From Streptomyces bambusae (lineage in GTDB: Bacteria > Actinomycetota > Actinomycetes > Streptomycetales > Streptomycetaceae), in contig NZ_JAJAUZ010000005.1 of NCBI RefSeq assembly GCF_020532645.1, positions 62,001-126,000 of the forward strand: DNA of 64,000 nt, written 5' to 3'. Position 1 is the first letter of the stretch; each line of letters begins with the position of its first letter. A program made the position numbers and the translations under genes. A model generated the notes under the pieces. It was given only the letters and a program-made list of their open reading frames with translations, searched no databases and was not told the DNA's origin. Positions 37,193-49,191 of this stretch are shown here, piece by piece.

Positions 37193-38014
37193 TCAGAGCG
37201 CGCGCCGGGCCGCGGCGATTGCCTCCGGGTCCCAGCCGGGGCGGGGTACGGACTCCAGGAGGAGCCGGGTGTACGGGTGGCGGGGGGCGGCCAGGACCTC
37301 CTCGGTGGCGCCGCGTTCGACCACGGCCCCGTGGCGCATGACGACGACCTCGTCGGTGACGCAGCGGACGACGCCGAGGTCGTGGGTGATGAACAGGTAG
37401 CCGATGCCCGTCTGCTCGCGGATGTCGGCCAGCAGGTTGAGGATCTGGGCCTGGACCGACACGTCGAGGGCGGCGACGGCCTCGTCGAGGACGAGGACGG
37501 CCGGCTCGACGGCGAGCGCGCGGGCGATGGCCACCCGCTGGCGCTGGCCGCCGGAGAGCTGCCGGGGCCGTGCGTCGGCGGCCCGGCTGCCCAGACCCAC
37601 CTGGTCGAGCAGTTCCCGTACCCGCGCGGTGTGGTCGCGGCCGGGGAAGTGCAGGGCGAGGGTTTCGCGAAGGGCGGCCGCGACGCCGGTGCGCGGGTCG
37701 AGGGAGAGGAAGGGGTCCTGGAAGACCATCTGGACCTCGCGGGCGCGGGCCAGCCGGGCGGCCCGGCCGCGGGCGGGCCCGGTCCGGGTCCGGCCGCGGA
37801 CCAGGACCTCGCCCCCGTCGGCCTGTTCGAGGCCGGCGACGATCCGGGCGGTGGTGGTCTTGCCGGAACCCGACTCACCGACGATGCCCAGCGAGCCGCC
37901 CCCGGGAAGGACGAAGGACACGTCGTCGACGGCGCGGACGCCTCCGAAGTCCCGCCGCAGGCCGCGCACTTCCAGGAGGGCGGATGACGTGCTGTCCGCG
38001 GTGCTAGCGGGCAT
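37193..38014 (-). CDS. Peptide-type ABC transporter ATP-binding protein (DppF-like)
   Basis: A 273-residue ABC ATPase: Walker A VGESGSGKTTTARIV, Q-loop QMVFQDPFLSLDPRTG, signature RQLSGGQRQRVAIARAL, Walker B VLVLDEAVAALDVS, H-loop LFITHDLGVV. The usual DEPTS/VSALD after Walker B is altered to DEAVAALD. Last gene of a five-gene importer operon, overlapping the preceding ATPase gene by 11 bp. Confidence 0.88.
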   Translation of the reverse strand: MPASTADSTSSALLEVRGLRRDFGGVRAVDDVSFVLPGGGSLGIVGESGSGKTTTARIVAGLEQADGGEVLVRGRTRTGPARGRAARLARAREVQMVFQDPFLSLDPRTGVAAALRETLALHFPGRDHTARVRELLDQVGLGSRAADARPRQLSGGQRQRVAIARALAVEPAVLVLDEAVAALDVSVQAQILNLLADIREQTGIGYLFITHDLGVVRCVTDEVVVMRHGAVVERGATEEVLAAPRHPYTRLLLESVPRPGWDPEAIAAARRAL

Positions 38015-38996
38015 CGGCAGGGCTCCCTTCGAGCCGGTCGCTGTGGTGGCAGGCGGCCGTGTGGTCGGGCCCGCCGGGGGCCGCGGCGGGGGCCGGGGCC
38101 TGCCGGTCGCACACCTCGGTGGCGAGCGGGCAGCGGGCCGCGAACCCGCAGCCGGGCAGGGGTTTGCGCAGGTCGGGCGGCTGGCCGTCGATGGCGGCGA
38201 GCCGGCCGCGGGGGCCGTCCATCCGCGGCGTGGAGGCCAGCAGGGCGGCCGTGTACGGGTGCCGTGGGGCGGCGAACAGGGCCTGGGCCGGACCGGTTTC
38301 GACGATCCGGCCCGCGTACATGACGTAGACCCGGTCGCTGATGGCGGCGGCGAGGTCGAGGTCGTGGGTGACGAACAGCAGTCCGGTGCCGAAGTCCCGC
38401 CGCAGCCCCGCCAGCAGGGCGATGACCTCGGCCTGGCTGGTGACGTCCAGCGCGGTGGTGGGTTCGTCCGCGAGCAGCAGGACGGGGTCCCCCATGAGCG
38501 CGGCGGCGATCACGATGCGCTGGAGCATGCCGCCGGAGACCTGCGCCGGGTAGCGGCGCATCACGGACTCGTCCAGGCCCACGGCCCGCAGCAGGCGGCC
38601 GGCCCGGGCGGCGGCGTCGGCCCGGGTCAGGGCGCCGGTGAGGACGGCGCCCTCGGTGAGGAAGTCGCCGATCCTGCGCAGCGGGTTGACGGCGGCGCGC
38701 GGGTCCTGGAAGACCATGGCGGCCGTGCCGGCGCGTACGGTGCGCAGCTCGGCCGGGGTCATGGCGAGGACGTCGCGGCCGTCGACGCGGACCTCTCCGG
38801 CGGTGCCGGCGCCGGGTGGCAGCAGGCCGAGTGCGGTGCGGGACGTGAGGCTCTTGCCGGAGCCGGATTCGCCGACGAGGGCGACGGTCTCGCCGCGGGC
38901 GACGGCGAGGTCGACGCCGTCGACGACGGGCCGGGCGGTGCCGGGCAGGGTGATGCGCAGTCCCGCGATGTCGAGGGCGTTGCCGGGTGTGGTCAT
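38004..38996 (-). CDS. Peptide-type ABC transporter ATP-binding protein (DppD-like)
   Basis: A 330-residue ATPase: Walker A VGESGSGKSLTSRTAL, AMVFQDPRAAVNPLRRIG, signature QVSGGMLQRIVIAAAL, Walker B VLLLADEPTTALDV, and the cysteine-containing oligopeptide-transporter C-terminal motif (LPGCGFAARCPLATEVCDRQ) that can bind an Fe-S cluster in Dpp/Opp ATPases. Four-base overlap with the upstream permease gene. Confidence 0.9.
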   Translation of the reverse strand: MTTPGNALDIAGLRITLPGTARPVVDGVDLAVARGETVALVGESGSGKSLTSRTALGLLPPGAGTAGEVRVDGRDVLAMTPAELRTVRAGTAAMVFQDPRAAVNPLRRIGDFLTEGAVLTGALTRADAAARAGRLLRAVGLDESVMRRYPAQVSGGMLQRIVIAAALMGDPVLLLADEPTTALDVTSQAEVIALLAGLRRDFGTGLLFVTHDLDLAAAISDRVYVMYAGRIVETGPAQALFAAPRHPYTAALLASTPRMDGPRGRLAAIDGQPPDLRKPLPGCGFAARCPLATEVCDRQAPAPAAAPGGPDHTAACHHSDRLEGSPADAR

Positions 38997-39847
38997 CGGT
39001 CTCTCCTGGCGACACGGTCGGCCCAGCGTTCGCCCACCACGTTGAAGGCGACCACGGTGAGGACGATGGCCGCGCAGGACAGGACCGCGGACAGCGGGTA
39101 GCCGTGCTGGATCGCGGTCTGCCCGTCGAAGACCATGCGGCCCCAGTCGGGGGTGAGCGCGGGGACGCCGAGGCCGAGGAAGGACAGGCCGGCGAGGTCC
39201 ATCAGGGCGTAGCCGAAGTTGATGGTGGACTGGGCGAGGACGACGGGGGCGATGTTGGGGAGGACGTGGCGCAGGCAGATCTGGAGGGCGGAGTGACCCT
39301 GGACCCGGTAGGCGCTCACGTAGGGGCGTTCGCGTTCGGCGAGGACGAGCGAGCGGGTGAGGCGGCTGACGTACGGCAGGTAGGCGACAGCGAGTGCGAG
39401 GACGGGGGCGAGCAGGCCTTCGCCGTACACGGAGATGATGAGGATGGCCAGCAGCATGCCGGGGAAGGCGAAGACCAGCTCGGTGCTGCGGGACAGCAGG
39501 GTGTCGAGGCGGCCGCCGCGCCAGGCGGCGGCGGTGCCGATGGCGACTCCGGCGACGGTGGAGAAGACCACGACGCCGAGCGGGCCGAGCAGTGAGGTCC
39601 GGGCACCGAGCAGCAGCCGGGAGAGGGTGTCGCGGCCGGCTGCGTCGACGCCGAGCGGGTGTCCGGCAGAGGGTGCGGCGAGGGCGCTGCCGAGGTCGAC
39701 GGCGTTGGGGTCGTGGGGCACCAGCCAGGGTGCGGCCACGGCGGCCAGGGTGACCAGGACGACGACGGCCAGGCAGAGGTGGTGGAGCGGGGAGCCCGCG
39801 GTGCGGATCCGGGCGAGGCCGGGCCGCCGGGTGAGGACGGCGGTCAT
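38993..39847 (-). CDS. Peptide-type ABC transporter permease (DppC-like)
   Basis: A 284-residue membrane protein: N-terminal helix LCLAVVVLVTLAAVAAPWLV, the DppC loop HPLGVDAAGRDTLSRLLLGA, TSLLGPLGVVVFSTVAGVAI, and the EAA-type loop AYRVQGHSALQICLRHVLPN. ATG 39847 overlaps the upstream permease stop by 4 bp. About six transmembrane helices. Confidence 0.88.
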   Translation of the reverse strand: MTAVLTRRPGLARIRTAGSPLHHLCLAVVVLVTLAAVAAPWLVPHDPNAVDLGSALAAPSAGHPLGVDAAGRDTLSRLLLGARTSLLGPLGVVVFSTVAGVAIGTAAAWRGGRLDTLLSRSTELVFAFPGMLLAILIISVYGEGLLAPVLALAVAYLPYVSRLTRSLVLAERERPYVSAYRVQGHSALQICLRHVLPNIAPVVLAQSTINFGYALMDLAGLSFLGLGVPALTPDWGRMVFDGQTAIQHGYPLSAVLSCAAIVLTVVAFNVVGERWADRVARRDR

Positions 39848-40803
39848 GCGGCGGCTCCCCTGGTGCCGAGGGTGATCCGGGGGTCGACGAGCGGCAGCAG
39901 CAGGTCGACGATCAGGTTCACGGTCATGAACAGGGCGACGATGATCAGGGAGATGGCCTGCACGGTCGGGAAGTCCTTGGTGCTGGTGGACAGTTCGAGG
40001 AGCTGCCCGATGCCGCCGACGCTGAACGCGGTCTCCACGAGCACGGTGCACACCAGGAGGGTCGAGACGACGAGTCCGCCGGTGGTGAGCACGGTGCCGA
40101 GGGAGTTGCGGAACACGTGGCGCCGGATGACCTGGCGTTCGGGCACGCCGCGGCTGCGGGCGACGGTGACGTGCTCGCTGTCGAGGGCTTCGAGCATCGC
40201 GGAGCGGGTGACCCGGGCGAGCATGCCGATCAGGTAGAGGGCGAGGGCGATGGCGGGCAGGGTGAGGTGCCACACCTTGTCGGCGAAGCCTTCGCCGGCG
40301 CCGCTGCTGGGGAACCAGCCGAGCCGGACGGCGAACAGGCCCTGGAGCAGGACGGCCGCGACGAACGACGGGGTGCCGACGGCGAAGGTGGTGGCGACGA
40401 GCACCGCCGAGTCGGTCGCCCCGCCGCGGACCGCGGCCAGCCGGCCGAGGAACAGGCCGACGACGGCGACCACGAGGAGCGCCATGGCGACCAGCAGCAG
40501 GGTGGTCGGCAGCCGGTCGGCGAGCAGCCGGGAGACGTCGGTGCGATAGGTGAGGGAGCGCCCGAAGTCGCCCTGGAGCACGTCGCCGAGCCAGTGGCCG
40601 TACCGGACGAGGAAGGGGTCGTCGAGGTGGTACTGGGCCTTGACGGCGGCCAGCGCCTCGGGCGAGGCGGAGCGCCCCGCGAGGAGGAAGCTCGCCGGGT
40701 CGCCGGGGGCGAGGTAGAGGGCGCCGAAGACCACGAACGAGGCGGCGAACAGGGTGACCGCCATCTCCAGCAGCCGGCGGGCGGCGAATCCGGCGAAGCT
40801 CAT
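39844..40803 (-). CDS. Peptide-type ABC transporter permease (DppB-like)
   Basis: A 319-residue permease: MSFAGFAARRLLEMAVTLFA, YLAPGDPASFLLAGR, LDDPFLVRYGHWLGDVLQGD, FGRSLTYRTDVSRLL, and the EAA loop VARSRGVPERQVIRRHVFRN. Six helices with the conserved C-terminal LLPLVDPRI. Coupled to its neighbours by 4-bp overlaps. Confidence 0.88.
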   Translation of the reverse strand: MSFAGFAARRLLEMAVTLFAASFVVFGALYLAPGDPASFLLAGRSASPEALAAVKAQYHLDDPFLVRYGHWLGDVLQGDFGRSLTYRTDVSRLLADRLPTTLLLVAMALLVVAVVGLFLGRLAAVRGGATDSAVLVATTFAVGTPSFVAAVLLQGLFAVRLGWFPSSGAGEGFADKVWHLTLPAIALALYLIGMLARVTRSAMLEALDSEHVTVARSRGVPERQVIRRHVFRNSLGTVLTTGGLVVSTLLVCTVLVETAFSVGGIGQLLELSTSTKDFPTVQAISLIIVALFMTVNLIVDLLLPLVDPRITLGTRGAAA

Positions 40804-42565: not shown

Positions 42566-43579
42566 TCAGCCGGTGGTGCGCGGCAGGGGGATCTGCTGGG
42601 TGATGCAGTGGACGCCGCCGCCGCCGAAGGCGATGGCGAGGGCGCGGACGCCGACGACCTTGCGGCCGGGGTGCGCGGAGGCGATCACGGCGAGGGCCGC
42701 TTCGTCCTGGGGCAGGCCGGCGACGGGGACCACGACACCGCCGTTGGCGATGTAGTAGTTGAGGTAGGACACCTCGATCTCGCCGCCGGCCAGGTCTGCG
42801 AACGCGGTCTGCGGGACGTCGATGATCTCCAGACGGCGTCCTCGGGCGTCGGTGCTGGCCTCCAGCACGGCCAGGTTGGCGCGCATCCGGACGTAGTCGG
42901 GGTGCGCCGGGTCGGCGGGGAGAGAGACGACGACGGTGCCGGGGGCGGCGAAGGCGCAGACGCCGTCCACGTGGCCGTCGGTCTCGGTGTCGAGGAGACC
43001 GCCGTACGGCAGCCAGATGATCTTCGTGACACCGAGCCGGGCCTTGAGTTCGGCCTCGATCTCCTCGCGGCCGAGGCCGGGGTTGCGGTTGGGGTGCAGG
43101 AGGCACTGCTCGGTGGTGATGAGGGTGCCTTCGCCGTCGACCGTGATCGCGCCGCCTTCGAGGACCATCTCGGAGGGGATGCGCTCGACGCCCAGGTGCT
43201 CCAGGAGGAGGGCGCTGATCCGGTCGTCGGCGTCCCACGGGTGGTGCTTGCCGCCCCAGGCGTTGAAGCGGAAGTCGACGGCGGCCCGGTTGCCGTCGCC
43301 GTCGAGGACGAACAGCGGCGCGGAGTCGCGGAACCAGGAGTCGTCGACGGGCATCTCGACGATGGTGATCCCGTCCCCGCAGTGGGCGCGGGCGTCGTTG
43401 CCGTGACCGGGCGGGGCGACCATGGTGACGGGCTCGAAGGCGGCGATGGCGCGGGCCACGTCCGCGTACTCCTCCTTGACCTCGGCGAGGACGCTGCCCC
43501 ACAGGTCCTCGCGGGTGGGCCAGGCCATCAGGCAGCCCTCGTGCGCGGACCACTCGGCGGGCATACGGTAATCAGCCAT
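42566..43579 (-). CDS. Cytoplasmic agmatine deiminase family protein (copy 2)
   Basis: A 337-residue protein with no signal peptide, starting MADYRMPAEWSAHEGCLMAW, typical of agmatine deiminase. Active-site blocks: DDSWFRDSAPLFV, LEGGAITVDGEGTLI, LLHPNRNPG, DGHVDGVCAFA, and FGGGGVHCITQQIP with the catalytic Cys. Converts agmatine to N-carbamoylputrescine if the annotation holds; no N-carbamoylputrescine amidase gene is visible in the window. A perfect 16-bp palindrome lies 40 bp upstream. ATG 43579 is preferred to ATG 43591. Confidence 0.87.
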   Translation of the reverse strand: MADYRMPAEWSAHEGCLMAWPTREDLWGSVLAEVKEEYADVARAIAAFEPVTMVAPPGHGNDARAHCGDGITIVEMPVDDSWFRDSAPLFVLDGDGNRAAVDFRFNAWGGKHHPWDADDRISALLLEHLGVERIPSEMVLEGGAITVDGEGTLITTEQCLLHPNRNPGLGREEIEAELKARLGVTKIIWLPYGGLLDTETDGHVDGVCAFAAPGTVVVSLPADPAHPDYVRMRANLAVLEASTDARGRRLEIIDVPQTAFADLAGGEIEVSYLNYYIANGGVVVPVAGLPQDEAALAVIASAHPGRKVVGVRALAIAFGGGGVHCITQQIPLPRTTG

Positions 43580-43618
43580 CGGGTGTCTCATTTCTTGCGT
43601 TGGAAGAGTCTGACATTC

Positions 43619-43634
43619 GACTGAAATTTCAGTC
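43619..43634. promoter_or_regulatory. Perfect 16-bp palindromic operator
   Basis: GACTGAAATTTCAGTC, a perfect palindrome, upstream of deiminase copy 2. Followed by AAGA, it shares 17 of 18 bases with the site at 44904-44920 upstream of copy 3. On the minus strand it overlaps a TTGACT -35 candidate. Confidence 0.7.
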
Positions 43635-43699
43635 AAGAGTCGGGGTGTGAATCGGCTCGCGGCGCGGACGGCCCGGAGAGGCGGCGGCGCCGGGTACGA

Positions 43700-44851
43700 C
43701 TACGCCGGCGGGGCGGCCGGGTGCGACTGGGTGGCGCAGTGGATGCCGCCGCCCCCGCTCGCAATGTTGTCGATGGCGATCTGCACCACCTGCCGGTCCG
43801 GGTACGCGGCCTGCAGGATCGCGTACGCCACGCCGTCGGCGTACCCGTCGCCGAAATGCGGGGCGACGACGGCCCCGTTCGGCGTGTAGTAGTTGGTGTA
43901 GCTGGACAGGAACTCGGCTCCCCCGCCGCGGATGAACCGCTTGTCCGGGCCGGGGAGTTCGGTGATGGCCAGCCGCCGGCCGCGGGCGTCGGTGGCGCCC
44001 TCCAGGACCCGCTTCGTCTCCTCGTACACGGCGACCCACTTGGGGTCGGCGCCGGGACCGGGCCGGTCGAGGATGACCCGGCCGGGGGCGGTGAAGCGGG
44101 CCAGGCAGTCGATGTGGCAGTCGGTGATGTCCTGGCCTGCCAGGCCGGGCACCCAGATCACCTTGGCGATGCCGAGCGACGTCCGCAGCGCCTCGTCCAC
44201 CTGCTGGAGGCTCATGCCGGGGTTGCGGTTGGGGTTGACCAGCGAACTGACCGTGGCCATCAGGGTGCCCTCGCCGTCGGTCTCCAGAGAGCCGCCCTCG
44301 CCGACGAATCCGGCCCGGATCCGCGGGACCTGGTACTCGTCGAGGAGGATGCCGGCCGCGGCGGCGTCGTTGGCGAAGGGCTGTGCGTACTTGGTGCCGG
44401 CCTTGCCCCACCCGTTGAAGCGGGTGTCCACGCCGGCGACGGCCCCCGGACCGGCCAGGAAGGTGGGGCCGAAGTCGCGTATCCACAGGTCGTCGACGGG
44501 GATCTCGATGACGTCGACGGCGTACCGGGCGCCGCGCCCGCAGAGGTGGCGGGCATCCGCGGCCTGACCGGGCCGGGCGAGCACCACGACCGGCTCGAAC
44601 CGCGAGATCGTGTGGGCGACCTCGGCGATGTCGGAGCGCACCCGGTCGAGCGAGCGCTCCCAGACCGAGGAGAGCGCAGGCCAGGCCAGGTACGTGCGGA
44701 CGTGGCGGTCGGTCTCCGCCGGCATGGTCAGCGCGGGTGCGGCGGCCGCCCGGGCCGGGGCGGCGGCGAGCGCCGGACCGAAGGCCGCCAGCGGCACGGC
44801 CGCCGCGCCGAGGCGGAGCATGCTGCGGCGGGAGGGGGTGGGGATGTCCAT
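43700..44851 (-). CDS. Tat-exported agmatine/peptidylarginine deiminase family protein (copy 3)
   Basis: A 383-residue protein with a twin-arginine signal (PSRRSMLRLGAAAVPLAAFG). Motifs: DDLWIRDFGPTFL, GEGGSLETDGEGTLM, LVNPNRNPG, DCHIDCLARFT, and ASGGGGIHCATQSHP with the nucleophilic Cys. It is closer in layout to copy 1 than to the cytoplasmic copy 2. It is the first gene of the minus-strand series copy 3, copy 2, importer. The operator-like repeat at 44902-44915 lies ~50 bp upstream. Confidence 0.87.
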   Translation of the reverse strand: MDIPTPSRRSMLRLGAAAVPLAAFGPALAAAPARAAAAPALTMPAETDRHVRTYLAWPALSSVWERSLDRVRSDIAEVAHTISRFEPVVVLARPGQAADARHLCGRGARYAVDVIEIPVDDLWIRDFGPTFLAGPGAVAGVDTRFNGWGKAGTKYAQPFANDAAAAGILLDEYQVPRIRAGFVGEGGSLETDGEGTLMATVSSLVNPNRNPGMSLQQVDEALRTSLGIAKVIWVPGLAGQDITDCHIDCLARFTAPGRVILDRPGPGADPKWVAVYEETKRVLEGATDARGRRLAITELPGPDKRFIRGGGAEFLSSYTNYYTPNGAVVAPHFGDGYADGVAYAILQAAYPDRQVVQIAIDNIASGGGGIHCATQSHPAAPPA

Positions 44852-45921: not shown

Positions 45922-46346
45922 CCGCGCCCCGGCCCGCAGGTCCAGAGGCTGCGGAGCGGGCGGCGGACGGCGGACGGGGGGCGGCTCCAGAGGCGGCCCG
46001 CAGGGGGCGGGGCGCGGCCGGTGCGTCTTCCCCCGTGCTCTTGCGGGCGTTCACCCGTTTGGGGGTACGGGGCCGGTGGGTAGTTCGGCGGGCGCTGCCC
46101 CGCGGACGGCCGGGGGCGGGGAGGGGGAGGCGCATGCGGGCGACGAGGGAGGGGCACGGGCCGGTACGGACCCGGGCGGCGCTCGACGGTCCGGGCGGCC
46201 CGCCGGCCCGTGCCTGGTGCGCGGCATCAGGGCGGGCGGGAGTGAGCCCGCGTACCGCCTCCGAAGCGCCCCCGGCAACTGCCGGTCCCGGTGCCCGGTG
46301 CGCGAGACCGTTGGCGCTGTCCACCACCACCCGCTGAGGAGATCCC
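45922..46346 (+). other. Leader region of the lanthipeptide locus; no gene seen
   Basis: About 425 bp between DUF4436 and LanKC. It contains purine-rich GGCGG runs but no clear promoter elements. GAGGAGA just before GTG 46347 is the LanKC ribosome site. No ORF long enough or well enough placed for a second precursor, transporter or regulator was found. Confidence 0.45.
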
Positions 46347-48971
46347 GTGCCCGAAGGCTTCGGCGAGGCGCTCGCCGACCGGGAGTACTACGTGCCGCTG
46401 CCGTCCGCGGCCGATCCCGGGCCGCGCTTCGCACCCCGCGACGTGCCGCCGGGCATGCAGGGCGCCGCCCGGGGCATCTGGACGGTCTGGGGCGACACGC
46501 GGACCGGGCTCCCCGAGCAGGGCTGGAAGATCCACGTGTCGGCGCGGCTGGACCGGGCGCAGCACGTGCTCGACACGGTCGCCCGGATCTGCTTCTCGGA
46601 AGGCGTTCCGTTCAAGCACCTGAGCGCCCGGCTGTTCTTCCTGTTCCTCCACCACAAGCACGCCCCGCGGGCCCAGTCGGGCAAGTTCTGCGCCGTCTAC
46701 CCGCCGGACCCGGCCACCGCCCGCCGGCTGCTGGAGCGCCTGCGTGACGCGCTCGACGGGGAGGAGGGTCCGTACGTCCTCACCGACCGGCGCTTCCGCG
46801 ACTCGCGGACGGTCCACTACCGCTACGGCGCCTTCGGTGCCCGCAGCCGGCTGCTGGCCGACGGCACCCGGGAGCCGCTGGTGCGCGACGGCGCCGGGCG
46901 CGAGGTCGCGGACCTGCGGGTGCCCGCCTTCCACCTGCCCGCCGGGATCACGGACCCCTTCGCCGGGAAGGAGGAGGAGCCGCACGCGGGCCCCATCCTG
47001 ATCCGCGACTACGAGGTGACCCGCGCGGTGCGCCTGGGCAACGCCGGCGGCACCTACCTGGCCCGGGACCGGCGCGACGGCCGCACCGTCTTCGTCAAGG
47101 AGGCCCGCGCCCACAACGGCCTGGTCTTCGACGGGACCGACGCGCAGCAGCGGCTGCGGCACGAGTACGAGGTGCTGCGCGCGCTGCACGCGGCCGCCCC
47201 CGGAGCGGCCCCCGAGCCCCTGGAGCACTTCACCGAGTGGGAGCACGACTTCCTCGTCACCGAGTACGTGGAGGGGCAGCCGCTGGTGGGCTGGCTGAGC
47301 CGGTCCTCCCCGCTGGCCCGCGCCGACCGCACGGCCGGGTCCGTCGCCGCGTACTACGGGGCGTGCCGGCAGCTGCTGGACGCGCTGGACGCCACGCTGG
47401 AGCGGGTGCACGCCGCCGGCTACCGGTTCGGGGACCTCAGCCTCGGCAACATCATGGTCACGCCGCCGGGCGGGGTCCGGCTGGTGGACTTCGAGGCGGC
47501 CTCGGCGCTGTCCGCGGCGCCCTCCGGGATGGGCACCCCGGGGTTCACACCGCCGCCCGGCCTGCTGCGGACCGGCACGGATCCGTTCCTGCAGGATCGT
47601 TACGGCATGGCGGCCGTCGCGTTCGCCTTCCTGGCGCCGTTCCAGGAGACCGCGGAACACGCCCCCGGCAACCTGGCGCTGCTGCGCCGCGACCTGGCGG
47701 ACGTGGCCCCGCCGCAGGACCTGTGGCAGCGGGCGACCGCATTCCACCCGACGGCGGGCCGGCCGCAGGACCCGGACGGTCCCGGCCGCCTGCCCTCGCC
47801 CGCCGAGCTGGACGCCGATCCGCGCGGCAGCCTCACCCGGCTGGCCGGTGAGGTGGCCGCGGGCCTGCTGGAAACGGCCGACCCCGACCGGCCCGACTGG
47901 GCCTTCCCGCCCTCGCCCGATGCGTTCCGCACGAACACCGTGTGCCTGGCCTACGGCACGGCCGGGGTGGTGCACGCCCTGCAGCGTGCCGGGACCGCGG
48001 TGCCGGAGGAGATCCGCGCCCGGCTGCGCCGCGACACGCTGGCGCAGCGCCACGCGCTGCCCCCGGGCCTGCTCGTCGGCTCGGCCGGCATCGCCCGGAC
48101 CCTGGCCGGCCTCGGCCTGCCGGACGAGGCGGCCGACCTGCTCGGGGCCGCCGACGCCCACCCGCTCACCGCCTCCTGCGCCACGCTGGCGGGCGGGCGC
48201 GCCGGGGTCGGCCTGGGCTGGCTGGCCCTGCACCGGCTCACCGGGGAGGGCAGCCACCTGGAGCGGGCCGCCGCGGCCGGGGAGGCCCTGCTGCACATCC
48301 CCGACCTGCAGGCCGGCCTCGGCGAGCACGACGCCCGCGGTCTGCTGCACGGCCGCTCGGGGCTCGCCCTCTTCCTCCACCGCCTGGCCGGCGCCACCGG
48401 CGAGGCCCGCTACCGGGAGGCGGGCCGCCGGCTGCTGCACCAGGAGCTGGACCGGACCTTCCCGCTGGACGACGGCGCCCTGTCCGTCTCCGACAACGCG
48501 CGCCTCACCCGCGCCATGCCGTACCTGGCCACGGGCGCGGCCGGGGTCGCGGCAGTGCTCACCCGCTACGTGGCCACCGCGCCGGACGAGCGGTGCGCCG
48601 AGGCGCTGCCGCGGCTGGTCGCCGGCATCCGGGTCTCGTGCACCACGAAGGAGGCCGGCCTGTACCGGGGGCTGGCCGGCCTGACCTGGTGCCTGACCGG
48701 GCACGCCGAGCTCACCGGCACCGACGCCGACCGCCGGGACGCCGTACGCGCCGCCACCGGTCTGCTGAAGTACGCCGTCCCGTACCGGCGCGGGGTCCGC
48801 TTCCTCGGCGCGGGCTCGCAGCGCTTCACCGCCGACCTGTCCAGCGGCGGGGCCGGAGTCCTGCTGGCCCTCCACCGCCTGCTGTCCGGCCCGCTCCTGA
48901 CCGAGCCCCACCCGGGCTCCCACGAACCCCTGGGCACGGCGGCATTCAGCCCCGTGCCGAGGCCTGCCTGA
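46347..48971 (+). CDS. lanKC: Class III lanthionine synthetase LanKC
   Basis: An 874-residue trifunctional enzyme. Lyase region (~1-215): WKIHVSARLDRAQHVLDTVA, VPFKHLSARLFFLF, GKFCAVYPPDP, HYRYGAFGARSR, FHLPAGITDPF. Kinase region (~215-490): TVFVKEARAHNGLVFDG for the catalytic Lys, FGDLSLGNIMVTPPGG (near residue 362) and LVDFEAASAL for the catalytic and metal Asp. Cyclase region (~520-860) has the LanC barrel repeats (GTAGVVHALQ, GSAGIARTLAGLG, GRSGLALFLHRLA, GLYRGLAGLTWCL) without the zinc ligands, as in class III. It phosphorylates, eliminates and cyclises Ser/Thr/Cys in the precursor that follows 42 bp downstream. Confidence 0.92.
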   Translation: MPEGFGEALADREYYVPLPSAADPGPRFAPRDVPPGMQGAARGIWTVWGDTRTGLPEQGWKIHVSARLDRAQHVLDTVARICFSEGVPFKHLSARLFFLFLHHKHAPRAQSGKFCAVYPPDPATARRLLERLRDALDGEEGPYVLTDRRFRDSRTVHYRYGAFGARSRLLADGTREPLVRDGAGREVADLRVPAFHLPAGITDPFAGKEEEPHAGPILIRDYEVTRAVRLGNAGGTYLARDRRDGRTVFVKEARAHNGLVFDGTDAQQRLRHEYEVLRALHAAAPGAAPEPLEHFTEWEHDFLVTEYVEGQPLVGWLSRSSPLARADRTAGSVAAYYGACRQLLDALDATLERVHAAGYRFGDLSLGNIMVTPPGGVRLVDFEAASALSAAPSGMGTPGFTPPPGLLRTGTDPFLQDRYGMAAVAFAFLAPFQETAEHAPGNLALLRRDLADVAPPQDLWQRATAFHPTAGRPQDPDGPGRLPSPAELDADPRGSLTRLAGEVAAGLLETADPDRPDWAFPPSPDAFRTNTVCLAYGTAGVVHALQRAGTAVPEEIRARLRRDTLAQRHALPPGLLVGSAGIARTLAGLGLPDEAADLLGAADAHPLTASCATLAGGRAGVGLGWLALHRLTGEGSHLERAAAAGEALLHIPDLQAGLGEHDARGLLHGRSGLALFLHRLAGATGEARYREAGRRLLHQELDRTFPLDDGALSVSDNARLTRAMPYLATGAAGVAAVLTRYVATAPDERCAEALPRLVAGIRVSCTTKEAGLYRGLAGLTWCLTGHAELTGTDADRRDAVRAATGLLKYAVPYRRGVRFLGAGSQRFTADLSSGGAGVLLALHRLLSGPLLTEPHPGSHEPLGTAAFSPVPRPA

Positions 48972-49013
48972 CCAGACCGGACCACCCACCCACAGAAGAG
49001 AGGCAGTACACCG

Positions 49014-49127
49014 ATGACCCAGATCCTCGCGCTCCAGGAACTCGACACCGAGCCGGAGTCCGCCGTCCTTCCCCCCTGCTTCAGCGTCTCCTGGAGCATC
49101 AGCGACATCTTCCCCGAGCCGATGTAA
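49014..49127 (+). CDS. lanA: Class III lanthipeptide precursor peptide
   Basis: A 37-codon gene from ATG 49014 to TAA 49127. The leader starts MTQILALQELDTEPES; ILALQELD is the conserved hydrophobic leader motif recognised by LanKC enzymes. The putative core, LPPCFSVSWSISDIFPEPM, contains one Cys followed by Ser at alternate positions (C-x-S-x-S-x-S-x-S). Normal labionin cores read S-xx-S-x(2-5)-C with Cys last, so ring topology must differ here. There is no obvious protease site. It follows LanKC by 42 bp, as ramS/amfS-type precursors do, and is closed by a strong terminator. Confidence 0.8.
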   Translation: MTQILALQELDTEPESAVLPPCFSVSWSISDIFPEPM

Positions 49128-49144
49128 CGAGCCCGCACCCCGCG

Positions 49145-49181
49145 AGGGGCCGGGCCCGGTGGCACCACCACCGGGCCCGGC
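49145..49181. terminator. 16-bp perfect terminator stem after the precursor gene
   Basis: GGGCCGGGCCCGGTGG (49145-49160) pairs perfectly with 49166-49181 around CACCA. It lies 17 bp after the precursor stop and 10 bp before the convergent pirin stop, so it probably terminates both transcripts. Confidence 0.85.
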
Positions 49182-49191
49182 CCTGCGCCGT

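Follow-up and report, generated by a model that had tools for sequence, protein, structure and literature searches.

A two-gene class III lanthipeptide unit in Streptomyces bambusae probably makes a peptide whose ring runs against the usual direction: Ser24 and Ser28 of a 37-residue precursor would be dehydrated, and Cys22, which precedes both, would close toward the C terminus to give a reversed lanthionine, possibly a reversed labionin. We put this reading at roughly two chances in three. The unit lies in the window, by which we mean the whole stretch of 64,000 nucleotides that was analysed, and a small fraction of Streptomyces and their relatives carry it. What we have from sequence is the enzyme with its catalytic residues, the precursor, an invariant C-x-S-x3-S pattern, the joint occurrence of both genes, and the placing of these enzymes in one clade beside forward-order relatives.

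The LanKC gene, its precursor gene and their surroundings

The LanKC gene (46347–48971, + strand) starts with GTG and encodes 874 amino acids in a single open frame, with lyase (residues ~1–212, Pfam RamC_N), kinase (~213–495, Pkinase) and LanC-like cyclase (~500–850, LANC_like) domains. It scored 761.6 bits against NF038151, the NCBIfam model for class III lanthionine synthetases (cut-off 575), and stayed under the cut-off of the class IV model (395.8 bits versus 650); the closest solved sequences were 8sap, 8sao and 8sam (E ~1e-68). With three domains in one protein and a score above the curated cut-off, the enzyme is, on these matches, a class III LanKC. An AlphaFold model built from 10 alignment rows had a mean pLDDT of 46.7 and was set aside.

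Equivalents of catalytic residues were mapped by hand from the alignment in 20 LanKCs sampled from the clade. K251, D363, N368 and D381, which we take to be the kinase motif residues, are kept in 20/20. The lyase set was taken from ThurKC (PMC10604976, in the part available), and the equivalents of its K65, H67, K94, K108, K117, D152, R163 and R191 are also kept in 20/20. Two of the three Cys/Cys/His zinc-ligand positions of the cyclase could be mapped, to Tyr773 and Arg774, neither of them a ligand. Arg774 is the equivalent of ThurKC Asp771, whose Ala variant lost cyclisation according to the same article (PMC10604976). Inside the clade this position varies (R in 10, D in 5, G in 3, Q in 1 and T in 1 of the 20). 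It is Arg in all four synthetases of the same alignment that, from their cores, we take to be SapB-type. We therefore rejected cyclase inactivation through loss of this Asp as a special feature here, since Arg occurs in the four SapB-type enzymes and Asp in five clade members; because SapB-type synthetases have it, Arg774 is not decisive against cyclisation.

The precursor gene begins 42 bp after the LanKC stop codon and runs from ATG 49014 to TAA 49127 (+ strand, 37 codons, MTQILALQELDTEPESAVLPPCFSVSWSISDIFPEPM), completing the minimal class III pair that an earlier note on this DNA had described. Its leader region (residues 1–21, 49014–49076) carries the motif ILALQ. The predicted core (residues 22–37, CFSVSWSISDIFPEPM, 49077–49124), for which we place the probable leader border between residues 21 and 22, contains Cys22 (49077–49079), Ser24 (49083–49085) and Ser28 (49095–49097), and the window peptide also carries Thr12 and Ser16 upstream of Cys22. 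The precursor scored below the cut-offs of the NCBIfam lanthi_III_a, lanthi_III_b and lanthi_III_c models scanned and of the noursin model NF050143 (13.7 bits, cut-off 40); one of eight scanned relatives passed lanthi_III_a (28.4 against a cut-off of 22). The 37-codon frame is not due to chance, because its relatives recur in the genus and in a species collection.

Homology among the type A relatives, the group that includes the window locus, starts ~110 bp before LanKC and stops near a hairpin beyond the precursor; sequence further upstream differs. The upstream block that these loci have in common (46240–46346, + strand, bounds approximate and drawn by eye) holds a putative promoter region and the ribosome-binding site GAGGAGAT; it was aligned from 18 of 19 type A loci, L031 being left out as its contig starts too close. 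The hairpin 3' of the precursor is GC-rich (49142–49188, + strand), with 21-nt arms (49142–49162 and 49168–49188) that are 90% complementary; the segment 49125–49200 folds at −52.5 kcal/mol (z −5.5, with 0/200 shuffles as good), and by eye a like inverted repeat is present in most of the 19 aligned type A loci. The sequence has no T run after the hairpin, so that of the terminator claimed here the strong hairpin stands, as a terminator-like element rather than a classic intrinsic terminator. The end once given for the locus, 49181, takes in most of this hairpin, and the precursor itself ends at 49127.

A scan of eleven other ORFs from the 38.0–52.0 kb region recognised no exporter or leader protease, in agreement with the earlier note, and the nearest ABC genes (38004–40273) are of the oligopeptide-importer type. 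Near the latter lie two adjoining genes of the PF04371 peptidyl-arginine deiminase family (42566–43636 and 43700–44851, both on the − strand). Thirteen other window genes were sought at 20 other loci and were absent save for weak ABC ATPase matches at two; across 23 loci, LanKC apart, two gene groups recurred at three or more, one at four loci and one at three. Nor was a conserved exporter, protease or regulator found beside the pair in the loci and neighbours scanned, which included a Pfam scan of the surroundings (16 neighbouring genes, nine other loci). At L120 genes for an ABC-2 permease and ATPase precede LanKC; when these were searched for at 20 loci, the one match outside L120 was to an ATPase in L023 (29%). 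The scarcity of common flanking genes, taken with the limits of type A homology, suggests that the pair acts as a small cassette whose setting changes from locus to locus. Many class III clusters lack a linked protease, according to the accessible portions of PMC8960859 and PMC7268733, and the genome itself has eight M1-peptidase matches.

Relatives of the precursor and conservation of its core

Twelve of 295 genomes in the genus, the window's own among the twelve, carry precursor relatives, which also occur at 21 loci in an 84,980-species collection, one of them in Streptacidiphilus; the latter search relied on two leader/core patterns, which can pick up only close relatives. Relatives are also present in other genera of the family. 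Matches to the precursor at E up to 0.1 came from 45 of 394 genomes, 14 of which had reversed-order cores; among the rest, three had Cys-less precursors (G657, G664 and G596), one was forward-order (G546), 25 others were all weak, and two (G683 and G479) look like chance matches. A class-wide draw of 394 genomes gave three matches with E no higher than 0.001, each from the window's genus, so in that sample the precursor was not seen outside the family. A plasmid search with the precursor gave a single half-length match (E 0.5), which we discounted. After de-duplication the set stands at 43 precursors from 35 loci, spread over four genus groups within one family.

The small ORF lies beside LanKC at 34/34 loci that have neighbouring sequence (the contig of L044 ends before LanKC). 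Four arrangements were seen. At 25 loci a single precursor of the window type, PCFSV[AS]WSISDIFPEPM or a close variant, is downstream of LanKC; L050 and L117 have one precursor upstream and one downstream; L118, L074, L119, L121 and L125 each have one precursor found, downstream, with other cores; and L120, L122 and L123 have three precursors in a row. Some of the LanKC genes are irregular. At L141 (genome G578) the LanKC has one in-frame TAA beside an intact precursor, and at L042 (S. diastatochromogenes) it is in several frame pieces, again with the precursor intact; each is either a pseudogene or an assembly error. At L017 (6825–9701) the LanKC matches overlap (query 1–525 and 474–855) in one open frame, and by its alignment the linker between kinase and cyclase apparently carries an insertion or is partly duplicated.

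The pattern C-x-S-x3-S is present in 43/43 precursors at the 35 loci. When the last 20 residues were shuffled 2000 times, it appeared in at most 5/43 (mean 0.74), a control that ignores shared descent. In the 36 of the 43 precursors that were aligned, the invariant columns are the start, L5-A6-L7-Q8, L10, Cys22, Ser24 and Ser28 (the three core residues in 36/36 aligned and in 43/43 of the full list), so that an LxLQ-type N-terminal motif beside LanKC is found in 36/36. The reversed order of Cys and Ser reported in the earlier note thus holds throughout, as does the conservation of the frame beside orthologous lanKC genes, whose failure the note had named as grounds for abandoning the idea. Its fuller core formula, C-x-S-x-S-x-S-x-S, keeps Cys22, Ser24 and Ser28 and loses the rest: residue 26 is Ala in most type A peptides, residue 30 can be Gly or Thr, and the alternate Ser belong to the window peptide and a few other members. 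The forward core pattern S-x2-S-x(2-5)-C is absent from 41/43; the other two, both from L122, match as T-x2-S-x3-C upstream of the conserved Cys. CxSxxS occurs in 0/43.

Among 16 type A sequences, the window's included, uncorrected pN/pS was 0.18 for residues 21–37, 0.57 for residues 1–11 and 0.86 for residues 12–20; at the amino-acid level the core therefore changes slowest and the spacer fastest, with the leader between. Ser and Thr in the spacer between leader and Cys are not invariant among the 36 aligned precursors, and one (L123:6611-6706) has no Ser or Thr between residue 8 and the Cys, thus lacking a forward partner outside the leader recognition region. Synonymous sites of the core (49074–49124) are also quiet (pS 0.068, whereas the spacer of this gene has 0.287), perhaps through codon preference.

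Enzyme lineage and the order of Cys and Ser

We recruited LanKCs independently of the precursor, scoring the best four or five candidates per genome. LanKCs with at least 60% identity were found in seven of 199 genomes sampled from the genus, with a reversed core in 7/7, and in nine of 180 sampled from the family, with a reversed core in 9/9; these are 15 distinct genomes (the window's own is in both samples), all 15 with a reversed core. The family search gave 21 further LanKCs at 41–53% identity, 16 with a precursor recognised by pattern and five without. All 16 recognised loci carry at least one forward-order core; 11 have two or more Cys, and at L164, L167 and L168 an extra Cys precedes the forward motif.

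As a control we took 32 loci outside the clade (44 precursors), and S/T-x2-S/T-x(2-5)-C was present at 32/32. The string C-x-S-x3-S appeared in two of the 44 peptides (L029 and L165), both two-Cys cores that have the forward motif, and there was no single-Cys core lacking the forward motif among the 44. This control took Cys-containing precursors, leaving out three Cys-less loci, five without a recognised precursor, and L129 (the same as L157). The window's own genome has two more LanKCs, 36–37% identical to the first and each with its own short precursors: one locus (L028) is in ordinary forward order, and the other is L029, whose core joins the forward motif to the C-x-S-x3-S string.

For LanKC trees we sampled 20 of the 34 clade members, leaving out broken ones. 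The 20 reversed-order enzymes fell on one side of a branch with SH-aLRT support of 99 (16 other rows, including L126 and L127, whose cores have no Cys) and 100 (30 other rows); both trees came from quick searches, and their outgroup branches are long. The nearest outgroup (L149, L150, L152 and L166) is forward-order, as is the next wherever a precursor was recognised, and the reversal is thus most simply a single derived change; the reversed order looks derived within the LanKC tree. Lining up by eye S-M-I-S-I-F-S-S-C of L166 (forward) with P-C-F-S-I-Y-A-S-S of L123 (reversed) puts the second Ser in common; the first Ser would have gone, with a Cys appearing next to its place and a Ser at the old Cys position. 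Positions that the clade has fixed and that four sister LanKCs lack were not enriched in the cyclase (29/167, against 22/112 in the kinase and 8/102 in the lyase).

Two other sets of loci were noted. L124, L126 (7231–7320, − strand) and L127 (7165–7227 and 7296–7358, + strand), from another genus of the family, have LanKCs ~35% identical to that of the window, and precursors with an ILALQ-type leader and no Cys, several of whose cores read S-H-W-S followed by A-H-like residues. L080 (8052–8570) and L128 (7425–7860) are class III loci in forward order, each with four precursors in tandem.

Proposed product and comparison with known systems

The course that we infer, from dehydration through ring closure and its direction to leader removal, export and a role, is as follows. 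The ILALQ leader helix would be bound by LanKC, which would phosphorylate at least Ser24 and Ser28 and eliminate them to dehydroalanines. The cyclase would then add the Cys22 thiol to dehydroalanine 24 or 28, the thioether to one of these two residues being the most likely outcome, and such a bridge would run N to C (a reversed lanthionine) because Cys22 is N-terminal to both Ser. Closure toward the C terminus, which the earlier note thought necessary for any ring, is therefore the likely outcome on present evidence. A second dehydroalanine may be captured to give a reversed labionin. The leader would be removed by a protease encoded elsewhere, and export would rely on a protein with no gene at the locus. 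As to role, our guess is a hydrophobic, SapB-like surface or signalling peptide.

A bolder version, which we hold tentatively and think rather doubtful, is a retro-labionin: the Cys22 thiolate would attack one dehydroalanine of C-x-Dha-x3-Dha and the resulting enolate the other, fusing a carbacycle between residues 24 and 28 to the N-to-C thioether. If true, a LanKC lineage descended from forward-order ancestors, and moving about as a cassette of two genes, would be forming a class III crosslink that points in reverse. Reversed-ring chemistry itself has precedent in another class, since the class II LanII product is reported to contain a ring in which Cys8 precedes its Ser partner, residue 14 (PMC9576775, in the text available).

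Dehydration might also occur without cyclisation, leaving two or more dehydroalanines and a free Cys22 that could later form a disulfide or other adduct. The Asp771 equivalent is not Asp in 15/20 sampled clade LanKCs, as this would lead one to expect; however, Arg is there in 4/4 SapB-type synthetases too, the window LanKC keeps its LANC_like domain, and the Cys is invariant in 43/43 at a fixed distance from two invariant Ser, a spacing that suggests a joint role, so we regard a free Cys as unlikely. The chances seem lower still for an ordinary forward ring, with Cys22 joined to Ser16 or Thr12 of the spacer and the downstream Ser left as dehydroalanine or serine. Both partners are present in the window peptide and T-x2-S-x3-C precedes the Cys in two L122 precursors, so that forward closure may occur in some members; yet the spacer is the fastest-changing part (pN/pS 0.86) and its Ser and Thr are not invariant, the L123 peptide has none after residue 8, and the invariant Ser are the downstream pair, Ser24 and Ser28.

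A possible objection is that the pair is a decayed or silent remnant that makes no product. No exporter or protease was seen beside it, and two relatives have a LanKC with an in-frame TAA (G578) or broken into frames (L042), perhaps by assembly; but the window LanKC reads through as one open frame, all 20 sampled enzymes keep the catalytic residues, and the core is slow at the amino-acid level, making decay very improbable. It could be argued instead that the small ORF is not the substrate and that a precursor elsewhere is used, as unclustered substrates exist in other lanthipeptide families. We consider this extremely improbable: the ORF stays beside LanKC at 34/34 loci while few flanking genes are in common, and the genome's other two LanKCs have short precursors of their own. 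We thus return to the reversed ring as our preferred reading; two genes would then yield a short scaffold as their product.

In the literature searched, 'reverse labionin' and its variants appear in PMC11251773 alone, for a different family. CFSVAWS and CFSVSWS were in no text searched, supplements and most subscription journals being outside reach, and titles and abstract openings (again with most subscription journals outside reach) named no class III product in which the Cys precedes the Ser that it pairs with; such precursors are likely listed, uncharacterised, in mining supplements. The 'new subclass' of the earlier note thus survives as a LanKC clade with its own precursor type, uncharacterised in the literature within reach: it is a genuine variant and not a new lanthipeptide class, and the idea of a 'reverse labionin' substrate was already in print (PMC11251773).

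The available text on that other family, 'Subfamily C' of Cotroneo et al. 2024 (PMC11251773), describes single-Cys Streptomyces peptides that likewise have Cys before two Ser, with a proposed 'reverse labionin' that is only predicted; it differs in its CxSxxS pattern, in its hybrid class II and class III clusters, and in having a second, Cys-less peptide. Noursin (NorKC, PMC10206099, in the part available) is also a short LanKC substrate with one Cys and weak leader similarity; there, residues 3 and 7 before Cys15 enter a labionin, with an added His-butyrine link, whereas Thr and His are both missing from the window core, which puts Cys first. SapB/AmfS-type and labyrinthopeptin-type systems are alike in LanKC enzyme and leader recognition, but their cores use S-x2-S-x(2-5)-C (PMC8960859 and PMC7268733, as far as accessible), and the window core has Cys first and one Cys only.

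The forward-order class III loci of our own searches (L149–L169, L073, L075 and L076; LanKC 41–53% identical) share the architecture, the LxLQ leader and adjacent short precursors, and differ in the Ser/Thr..Ser/Thr..Cys motif, found in 16/16 of those recognised. We know of no characterised product for these forward-order LanKCs. Set against them, the clade is a natural experiment, in which related enzymes ~50% identical, with the same leader motif, have substrates with opposite Ser/Cys order, and swaps of cores or cyclase domains between the reversed and forward groups could reveal the determinant of direction.
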